Under the pieces are notes generated by a model. It did no database searches, was not told the origin of the DNA, and saw nothing but the letters and a program-made list of their open reading frames with translations. The position numbers were made by a program, and so were the translations under genes. A stretch of 64,000 nt of DNA, taken from assembly GCF_031624495.1 (NCBI RefSeq), contig NZ_JAMQOP010000002.1, positions 186,001 to 250,000 of the forward strand, in the 5' to 3' direction. Below are positions 45,199-47,533 of the stretch, piece by piece; position 1 is the stretch's first letter; every line of letters begins with the position of its first letter. Origin of the DNA: Halogeometricum sp. S1BR25-6. Its GTDB lineage: Archaea > Halobacteriota > Halobacteria > Halobacteriales > Haloferacaceae.

Positions 45199-46260
45199 TC
45201 AGACGAACTGTTTTCGGTCCGGGACCTCGTCGCGGCCGAGGATTATCTCCTGGGCCTCCACGTCTTCGAGCGCAGAGACGAGACCGCCGATTTCGAGGAC
45301 GCCGTCCTCGGTCTCCATCTCGAAGGAGGCGACCTCTTCGGATTCCTCGAAGGTGGTCCTGCTGACGCGTCCCTCGACGACGATGGAGTCGCCGGACTCG
45401 ACGTGTCGGCCGGAGACGGAGGCGTAGAACTCCCCGCCGAGTTCGCGCACGTCCTTCACGGCGCGACGGATGGAGGCGTAGCGGCGGGGGAACGGGCGGC
45501 GCTTGCCGTTGGCCGCCAGCGTCTCGGCCGTCGTCCAGAGGACGGTGCCGAAGAAGCCGCTGACGAGGAAGCCCAGCGCCGAGCGGTTGAAGATGACGCC
45601 GTAGCGGTCCTTGTCGTCGCGGAGGGCGTCCTGCGTCGCGTACACCGAGTACTCGCCGTCGGCGACGGCGAGGACGGGCGTGGTGATGCCCCGTCGGCCG
45701 CGCGCGATGGTGGCGACTTCGAGGTAGTCGAACTCCGCCGGGTCGGGGGCGCGAGAGAGCGGCGTGATGAGGAGGTCGACGCTCACCCCGTCGTCGATGG
45801 CCGAGGCGAGTTCGTCGTGGAAGCGGCGCAGGAGGTCCGGCGTCAACGACAGGATGAGTTCGTACTCGGCGTTCTCGATGATCTCCTCGATGTAGCGAAG
45901 GATGGTCGACCGCGACTTCACGAGCGAGACGGCCTCGGTGTCGCGGGCGGGTGCGGTGTAGCGGGCTTCCAGTTCGGAGATGAGGTCGTCCAACGAGGTC
46001 TTCACGTTCGCGAACGCGTCGTCGGGGTCGACGGCGACAATCTTCATCGGGCGCGACTCGCGGAGCTCGACGAGGCCGCGGTCCGAGAGGCTTCGGACGG
46101 TGTCGTACACGCGGGGTTGCGGGATGTCGGTCCGGTCGGCGATCTCCGAGGCGGTGAGTTCCCCGTGTTCGAGGACGGCGAGGTACGCCTCTATCTCGTA
46201 CTCGCCGAGGTTGAACCGCTCGCCGACGCTTTCCATCGTCGTCCGCAGTTCGTCTGCCAT
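45199..46260 (-). CDS. trmB: TrmB-family sugar-responsive transcriptional regulator
   Basis: 353 residues. The N-terminal winged helix (about 10-85) includes [20 protein letters not shown] and [21 protein letters not shown]. The middle is phospholipase-D-like (about 115-240: [22 protein letters not shown]). The C-terminal TrmB effector domain is beta-rich. In Halobacterium TrmB controls sugar and central metabolism through TACT-N7/8-GAGTA sites; such a site lies in this gene's own promoter. It is adjacent to the sugar transporter region, so it is a candidate regulator of it. Confidence 0.92.
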
Positions 46261-46309: not shown

Positions 46310-46333
46310 GCACTGTCCTTCGGAACACGATGG

Positions 46334-46350
46334 TATATAACGTTCGAACG
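46334..46350 (+). promoter_or_regulatory. TATATAA promoter element followed by perfect palindrome CGTTCGAACG
   Basis: TATATAA at 46334-46340 with the self-complementary 10-mer CGTTCGAACG at 46341-46350 directly after it. It points towards the hairpin array, with a predicted start near 46364. The palindrome between TATA and start is in a repressor-type position. Confidence 0.5.
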
Positions 46351-46450: not shown

Positions 46451-46546
46451 AGGACCGCCCTTCGCCGTCGAATCGGTGTTCCGAGGTCGTTCTCAGCGAT
46501 TGCACCGCGAGGCGAGCGAACGCGAGTCTCGCGGCATCTTTTTGTC

Positions 46547-46771
46547 GCCAGAACGCGGCGCGTTCTGGCTGAACAGCCAGAAATCTCCGATTTCTGGCGG
46601 TGCCGTCAGACGGCACAGCCGTCTGACTGCTAACCGGAAAGCTCTGCTTTCCGGTGATGGTCCAGATTTTTGCAAGGAGGGCTCTCCACAGCGAGCCGAA
46701 GGCCCGCGAGGAAGCCCGACGTCTCCGAAAATCGAAGATTTTCGGGATGCACGGACAGCTTCGCTGTCCGT
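46547..46771. repeat. Array of six covarying 9-10 bp hairpins with 3-nt loops
   Basis: Perfect stem-loops at 46547-46569, 46576-46598, 46605-46627, 46633-46655, 46725-46745 and 46751-46771, with loops GGC, TCC, ACA, TCT, GAA and TTC. The first four are spaced every 28-29 nt. The 5' arms follow one pattern: N-[CTA]-C-[AG]-[GA]-A-[AC]-N-[GT]-C. Every substitution is matched in the 3' arm. A decayed copy (GGCTC...GAGCC, 46680-46697) lies in the gap. No protein-coding explanation is convincing. It sits between the 3' end of the PAC2 gene and trmB. Confidence 0.85.
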
Positions 46772-46792
46772 TAACACAGCAAAACGGTGGTG

Positions 46793-47533
46793 TTACATGT
46801 ACATCCGGTCCTCGGGCATCTCCTCCTCGCGCGCTTCGAGGCGTTCGGCGAGTTCGGCGTAGTGCTGTCGCACTTCGCCGGCGAACGCCTCCAGGGGGTC
46901 GGCGTCGAGTCCCAGTCCGTACACCGACTCCGCGGCCTCCACGAGGCGGACGGCGGCGTCCACGTCGGGCACCTGCGCGTGGACGGGCGTGATGTAGACG
47001 CAGACGCCGAGCGGGGAGTCGATGCCGCGTTCGACGAGAGCGGCGTTCGTCCCGTCGAAGAACCCGCGACCCATCGGCGGAATCTCCGTGTCGGCCAACC
47101 GGCGCTCCCGGTAGTCGTCGGTGGCCACGAAGTACGTCTCGTGCTCGGCGTGGCTGTGCGGAATGGGAACGCCCGAGAGGACGGCTATCTCGTCGACGCC
47201 CTTCTGTTCGGTCCACTCCAAGACGGCGTCGGAGAACGCCCCGCCCGCGGCCGCCGGCACGAACAGTTCGCCGACGAGGACGGTCACGTCGAGGTCCGGC
47301 CGCGAGAACAGTCGGGTGTGGTGTCGCGGACGCCCCTCCTCGAACGGGGTCACCGCGGGCAGGCCCTCGACGGTGAGGTGACCGATTTCTTCGAGTTCGA
47401 GTTGGTCGACGACGAAATCCGCGGCCGTGAGTCCGGCGAGGCCGAACGTCGAGAAGCCGGCGAGCAGCGTTTCTCCGGGCGACTGGTCGGAGGAGATGGC
47501 GAAATCTGGTGTCTGTCTGAAGCGACCGAGCAT
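46793..47533 (-). CDS. PAC2-family protein (proteasome-assembly-chaperone-like)
   Basis: 246 residues. The PAC2 fold shows in LLAGFSTFGLAGLTAADFVVDQL, the segment ending TRLFSRPDLDVTVLVGELFVP, IAVLSGVPIPHS and PLGVCVYITPVHAQVPD. It ends with a helical acidic tail (HYAELAERLEAREEEMPEDR). Archaeal PAC2/PbaB-like proteins are homologues of eukaryotic proteasome assembly chaperones, but their role in haloarchaea is not settled. The hairpin array begins about 20 bases after its stop codon. Confidence 0.85.
   Translation of the reverse strand: MLGRFRQTPDFAISSDQSPGETLLAGFSTFGLAGLTAADFVVDQLELEEIGHLTVEGLPAVTPFEEGRPRHHTRLFSRPDLDVTVLVGELFVPAAAGGAFSDAVLEWTEQKGVDEIAVLSGVPIPHSHAEHETYFVATDDYRERRLADTEIPPMGRGFFDGTNAALVERGIDSPLGVCVYITPVHAQVPDVDAAVRLVEAAESVYGLGLDADPLEAFAGEVRQHYAELAERLEAREEEMPEDRMYM

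Follow-up and report, generated by a model that had tools for sequence, protein, structure and literature searches.

A dispersed double-hairpin unit of Halobacteria, present as an array between PAC2 and trmB genes, is probably a non-autonomous mobile DNA element

An array of six hairpins between a PAC2 family gene and a TrmB family regulator gene of Halogeometricum sp. S1BR25-6 probably consists of a non-autonomous mobile DNA element, ~54-58 nt long and devoid of coding capacity, in three copies. Dispersal of the unit, its presence or absence at orthologous places, insertion without target duplication, constraint on its structure and survival in frame within genes were each observed, and its mobility is inferred from the presence/absence comparisons. 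An earlier sequence-only reading of the locus had offered three explanations, among which a palindromic mobile element family was best supported, whereas an RNA specific to pac2 was not supported and an operator array was disfavoured.

The array and the PAC2-trmB locus

All six stem-loops that had been claimed, with stems of 9-10 bp and loops of 3 nt, were found on the minus strand of the window (the whole stretch of 64,000 nt that was analysed). Hairpins 1 (46547..46569, GCCAGAACGC-loop-GCGTTCTGGC), 2 (46576..46598, GCCAGAAATC-loop-GATTTCTGGC), 3 (46605..46627, GTCAGACGGC-loop-GCCGTCTGAC) and 4 (46633..46655, ACCGGAAAGC-loop-GCTTTCCGGT) have 10 bp each and start 29, 29 and 28 nt apart, in agreement with the periodicity of 28-29 nt noticed before, and hairpins 5 (46725..46745, CCGAAAATC-loop-GATTTTCGG) and 6 (46751..46771, ACGGACAGC-loop-GCTGTCCGT) have 9 bp. 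The column pattern described earlier (C in column 3, purines in columns 4-5, A in column 6 and C in column 10) was true of 6/6 hairpins. Compensated changes were likewise borne out, as 98.3% of the cells in the six-unit alignment were paired with 14 double changes, a result that 0/500 shuffles equalled. Both sides had changed at seven of the ten pairs, and slid versions of the alignment, used as a register control, paired at 29-42%. In random order-2 sequence of 64 kb with the same composition ~1.3 hairpins of this kind occurred, at most one of them in any 225 nt, as against seven in the window, six of which were the array. Folding of the array gave z = -10.2 as DNA and z = -9.0 as RNA, and the preferred reading of the array is that of three hairpin pairs on the minus strand.

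The PAC2 gene (46793..47533) lies upstream of the array and the trmB gene (45199..46260) downstream, both on the minus strand. The modules are carried by a dispersed 3'-of-gene repeat on the same strand (46505..46790, GTTTTGC...GCAAAAATCTGGACC / AAAAAGATGCCGCGAG...CTCGCGG), which begins directly past the PAC2 stop codon, recurs after many genes of this genome and has the minus-strand layout CCCACCTTTTTGC-[hairpin]-GCAAAAAGCTGGACC-AAAAAG-CCGCGAGG...CCTCGCGG. A four-hairpin insertion of 115 nt (46544..46658, minus strand), composed of two tandem double-hairpin modules reading ATC...GAC, is placed between GGACC and AAAAAG of this repeat and was matched by covariance model R1 at 46544-46601 (72.6 bits) and 46602-46658 (71.9 bits). 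The third module (46721..46775, minus strand), which contains hairpins 6 and 5, occupies the 5' half of the repeat and was matched at 58.3 bits.

A comparison of the PAC2-trmB locus in five Halogeometricum species found nothing in two, the 3' repeat only in two and the three modules in one. The orthologous locus of H. limi (G001) and of G004 consisted of 137-146 nt only, with neither repeat nor modules, while the repeat of G002 and G003 was uninterrupted at GGACC^AAAAAG and read GGACCAAAAAG. It is exactly at this junction that ATC-[four hairpins]-GAC sits in the window genome, whose PAC2 protein has 94% identity to that of H. pallidum and 83% to that of H. limi, and the third module was also missing from the orthologous loci of the relatives. 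The window copies would be ones that landed in a 3' repeat behind PAC2, where their effect would probably be small. The 3' repeat (loci L032-L046, L295 and L296 besides the window copy) forms one stem from TTTTTGC...GCAAAAA, with covariation of the outer pairs (CGAGCTTTTTGC/GCAAAAAGCTCG), and another from CCGCGAGG...CCTCGCGG, and appears to be itself a 3'-end element that is mobile or has been duplicated.

Dispersal of the unit and its insertion in protein genes

BLAST with the array already matched other places as hairpin pairs. The covariance-model search that the sequence-only reading had called for used model R1, built from ten hairpin pairs with 57 positions and 20 base pairs, and recovered a two-hairpin unit of ~57 nt dispersed in the genome, genus and class; the seed held structured copies only, which bears on the recall of unpaired copies. 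Twenty-one distinct places of this genome matched at an E value of 1.2e-5 or better, and the unit was present in 5/5 Halogeometricum genomes and in at least 334 of 391 genomes and 82 of 86 genera of Halobacteria (E <= 1e-7, with 14 candidates scored per genome). Outside Halobacteria, four of ~101 genomes in a phylum-wide draw had it, three of the four from one genus. Among 72,556 plasmid records 33 carried the unit, all 33 of them haloarchaeal going by organism name, and a scan of viruses with one exact hairpin returned a single match, a solitary terminator-like hairpin. The unit is 48-72 nt long, mostly 57, with two hairpins of 8-10 bp and a linker of 5-6 nt, and occurs on either strand in 3' repeats, the ends of IS605-type elements and protein genes. 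Some genomes contained several identical copies.

No target duplication was needed to account for the insertions, as the net insertion equalled the element length at L069, L070 and L077. The GAC found at both ends was considered as a duplication and rejected, the left flanks being variable (GGC, GAG, ATC) and the right end always GAC. Insertion sites were often GRY|G, and also included GGACC^AAAAA of the 3' repeat and, in IS605-type elements, positions next to the RE palindrome. In a genome that we take to be H. walsbyi C23, a double hairpin of 46 nt, present or absent at one point, distinguished paralogous copies of an IS605-type repeat.

Many copies were located inside open reading frames, to which they add a hydrophilic peptide of 16-19 residues that in coding orientation reads V-[DHA]-E-[TSN]-R-x-x-S-[SA]-A-N-Q-N-A-x-R-S-G-D and, in the insert of NrdJ or Dph5, includes VHGSEAPVSQPEADASGD. 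Of the 30 copies in coding-like frames, 23 agreed in orientation, were in phase 0 and had a length that is a multiple of three. Those in CobW (L056) and Dph5 (L143) were misplaced by the automatic rule, yet are in frame as judged by Pfam/NCBIfam domain or orthologues, and L130, L135 and L141 are coding copies off the canonical frame. The hosts include the AdoCbl-dependent (B12) ribonucleotide reductase NrdJ at two separate sites (L070/L120 and L131), diphthine synthase (Dph5), histidine ammonia-lyase (HutH), an ornithine cyclodeaminase (TIGR00300), a GH13 enzyme, CobW, AstE/AspA, HerA helicase and TnpB. A conserved reading frame, which the sequence-only reading had named as a finding that would speak against it, was common in other copies of the unit and not present in the window array.

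Orthologues in other species run through without the insert. NrdJ contained a clean insertion of 18 residues in two species and none in three (alignment at 92-95% identity), and Dph5 one of 17 residues in one of five species (90-92% identity). At the DNA level the extra length was 54 nt in NrdJ and 57 nt in GH13, and the AstE/AspA gene was longer by exactly 54 nt than four empty orthologues. The hosts still passed their family cut-offs (HutH 658 vs 539, Dph5 239 vs 114 and ornithine cyclodeaminase 537 vs 411). AlphaFold prediction of Dph5 with five sequences gave a mean pLDDT of 37, too low to draw on. A tandem pair of modules adds 38 residues to a single coding gene at L200 (G244:C4), and at L135 (G002:C9) a TnpB gene carries a module inside its conserved HADYNAAKNIG motif and is probably inactive as a result.

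Stems, loops and folding as DNA

The claim that structure and not sequence is kept was supported by the covariation in the window and by a homologous hairpin outside the search model. The latter, part of a homologous multi-copy element in one related genus, presumably Halorubrum, was tested to escape the circularity of a structure-based search. Its arms vary (CGAGACGCC, CGAGAGAGC, CGAAACGGC, CGAGAGACC) with a matching 3' arm each time, 97.4% of its cells were paired, 16 cells were double changes vs 6.2 in shuffles (0/500), and its covariation score was 0.377 vs 0.149. A relative of the four-hairpin array at a different locus in G003 had changed at 0/80 stem, 0/23 linker and 7/12 loop positions (Fisher p = 9e-8 for loops vs stems), and the stems are therefore conserved and the loops fast. 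Linkers were also fixed among type I modules. In coding copies common by descent (L067/L110 and L145/L239) the stems decay through unpaired changes, so that pairing is not maintained there after insertion; this suggests that pairing counts more for spreading than after insertion in a gene.

The closing pair was C-G in 279 of the 293 hairpins of the module regions, which had 89 different inner arms, and most of the loops had the form C(GNA)G on one of the strands. Of the 293 loops, 174 were GNA (89) or the complementary TNC (85) vs ~100 expected from single-position frequencies, counts that come from related and hence not independent copies. Type I modules favoured GNA in their first hairpin (16:5) and TNC in their second (3:14), which indicates that the pair is inverted, each hairpin folding best on its own strand. 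The modules are not alone in this loop preference, since GNA or TNC loops were also present in 57 of 124 other haloarchaeal hairpins in these genomes. C(GNA)G is, as summarised in PMC4686876, the exceptionally stable DNA mini-hairpin of Hirao, Yoshizawa and colleagues, and the loops lend support, short of proof, to folding of the modules as single-stranded DNA.

A fuller and more tentative proposal, which we regard as possible and somewhat less than an even bet, is that of a class-wide element recognised by the shape of two GNA-triloop DNA hairpins and not by sequence, with stems rewritten pairwise, that donates in-frame loops to proteins such as ribonucleotide reductase. Such an element would move while its DNA is single-stranded and each hairpin folds with an ultra-stable C(GNA)G triloop, and an enzyme acting in trans would recognise the hairpins by shape. 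The arms would stay complementary either through movement of folding copies only or through templating of one arm by the other, the fast change of the loops may come from their being opened then resealed, and insertions in genes would persist only in the frame and orientation that yield a harmless loop. If true, the element would be among the shortest prokaryotic mobile elements and nearly universal in Halobacteria. It raises the questions of what allows recognition of an element whose sequence is hardly fixed at all, whether paired changes, usually taken to prove a functional RNA, can arise from DNA hairpins, and how frequently selfish DNA supplies loops to archaeal proteins. Caution is advised in haloarchaeal RNA annotation where covarying triloop hairpins are concerned.

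Alternative explanations and related elements

The most probable alternative is a narrower form of the mobile element, in which the units derive from IS200/IS605 elements as PATE-like remnants, being palindromes from their interior or ends, and Y1 TnpA mobilises them as RAYTs do the REPINs of bacteria. The hairpins, the lack of target duplication and the insertions in or near IS605-type elements and TnpB genes all fit it, and REPINs and PATEs are themselves IS605-related (PMC3116915, PMC3119063). We consider it unlikely, however, as stem sequences differ among the copies whereas TnpA and RAYTs match conserved palindromes, and no IS605 terminal sequences were apparent at the gene insertions. 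Y1_Tnp was present in 22 of 33 genomes, yet three module-bearing genomes (G290, G204 and G004) had no Y1 TnpA genes, and Y1 TnpA was not supported as a necessary partner. No mobilising enzyme was found.

Less probable still, though not negligible, is a structured RNA or an element at the mRNA 3' end of genes such as PAC2, serving there as stabiliser, terminator or processing site and selected on the transcript, the array having grown by local duplication. In keeping with it are stems that pair and co-vary, the fixed linkers of type I modules, the RNA z-score of -9.0 and the position of the array directly past the PAC2 stop, in a 3' repeat whose copies begin behind the stop codons of many genes. 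The unit was nevertheless found on either strand, inside open reading frames and in IS605-type ends, no Rfam family matched above the gathering threshold, and the loop preference suits DNA triloops better than RNA. A pac2 3' UTR or locus-specific RNA, as had been suggested, is unsupported because the array is missing at orthologous loci, some PAC2 orthologues being without the entire 3' repeat, and because the unit is dispersed class-wide in varied contexts and on both strands. The TATATAA at 46334, taken by the sequence-only reading as a candidate promoter for an array RNA, belongs to a box (46331..46340, minus strand) whose counterparts stand at a constant position in front of trmB in relatives that have no array, and was therefore assigned to trmB. 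A protein-binding operator array, for instance for TrmB or a nucleoid protein, is very improbable despite the perfect palindromes and the intergenic position upstream of trmB, as the stems are too variable for a sequence-specific protein, four relatives lack the array before trmB and copies occur inside genes.

The unit was compared with described families, and searches of the literature on haloarchaeal and palindromic elements, which covered a minority of the subscription papers, yielded no account of it in haloarchaea. In form the unit comes closest to the double-hairpin elements (DHE) known from fungal mitochondria, and in its invasion of genes it most resembles Rickettsia palindromic elements (RPE), with REPINs, PATEs and SMRs as neighbours. 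DHE, known from Allomyces and Schizosaccharomyces (Paquin et al. 2000, cited in PMC10085805), are according to that summary two adjacent hairpins of tens of nt, variable in sequence, present or absent among species and inserted in genes, with interspecies copies that may differ in the loop only. The unit too has two adjacent hairpins below ~80 nt and is present or absent at orthologous sites; it differs from the mitochondrial DHE summarised there in its location on archaeal chromosomes and plasmids, its 3-nt GNA loops and its in-frame copies in cellular protein genes, and there is no shared sequence to compare, the likeness being one of form alone. RPE of Rickettsia (PMC10969869) are likewise palindromic and in frame in unrelated protein genes with a related peptide, the unit having one preferred frame. 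They are bacterial sequence families of ~150 bp, whereas the unit is class-wide, archaeal and ~57 nt with two freely varying stems; membership was rejected on the size of the units (48-72 nt) and their haloarchaeal, not Rickettsia, sequences.

REPINs (REP-RAYT, PMC3116915) are also short, dispersed, non-coding inverted hairpin pairs, but REPs have a conserved sequence, lie outside genes and go with RAYT genes, whereas the stems of the unit vary, many copies are intragenic and no RAYT link was found. The two conserved inverse REP sequences of a REPIN are not seen among the 89 inner arms of the 293 hairpins. Palindrome-associated transposable elements (PATE) and IS605-type elements of Haloquadratum (PMC3119063) share with the unit palindromes, a haloarchaeal host, an IS605 neighbourhood and insertion without target duplication, and modules also sit inside such elements. 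PATE differ in having near-terminal palindromes of IS605 type and no terminal inverted repeats, whereas the unit has inverted ends and hairpins throughout. MITEs have transposon-matching terminal repeats and usually a target duplication, and the unit was without the latter. SMR-A (HqIRS42/43/55 of Haloquadratum, ~110 bp with conserved terminal inverted repeats, PMC3119063) also lacks target duplication and prefers the near-terminal palindromes of IS605/PATE. Repeats of 110-117 bp in 400 kb of C23, called SMR-A by length and terminal repeats alone, were of a different, hairpin-free type whose terminal repeats (ATAGTGATT...AATCACTAT) are rich in A+T. Memberships of the unit in SMR-A, PATE and REPIN were thus rejected or are unproven.

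Other hairpin elements were also noted. A multi-copy element of ~220 nt in related genomes (L175-L184 in G201 and G230) contained four hairpins between the complementary ends CAAAGGGGCAGCCG / CGGCTGGGGCTTTG and had no Rfam match. Near 473300 of G000:C2 (L072/L008) a 14-bp hairpin has the gene end as its 5' arm and the TAG stop as its loop and is followed by a module, and a relative (L146) is similarly arranged with another stem sequence. Partial tRNA-like (att-like) duplications adjoin hairpin elements at L003 and L078 of G000:C1, the latter with two near-identical copies 1.8 kb apart. In one genus outside Halobacteria (L263-L269 in G416, G425 and G432) analogous double-hairpin arrays of the form xxAAATC-NNN-GATTTxx were observed, one of them apparently in an open reading frame.
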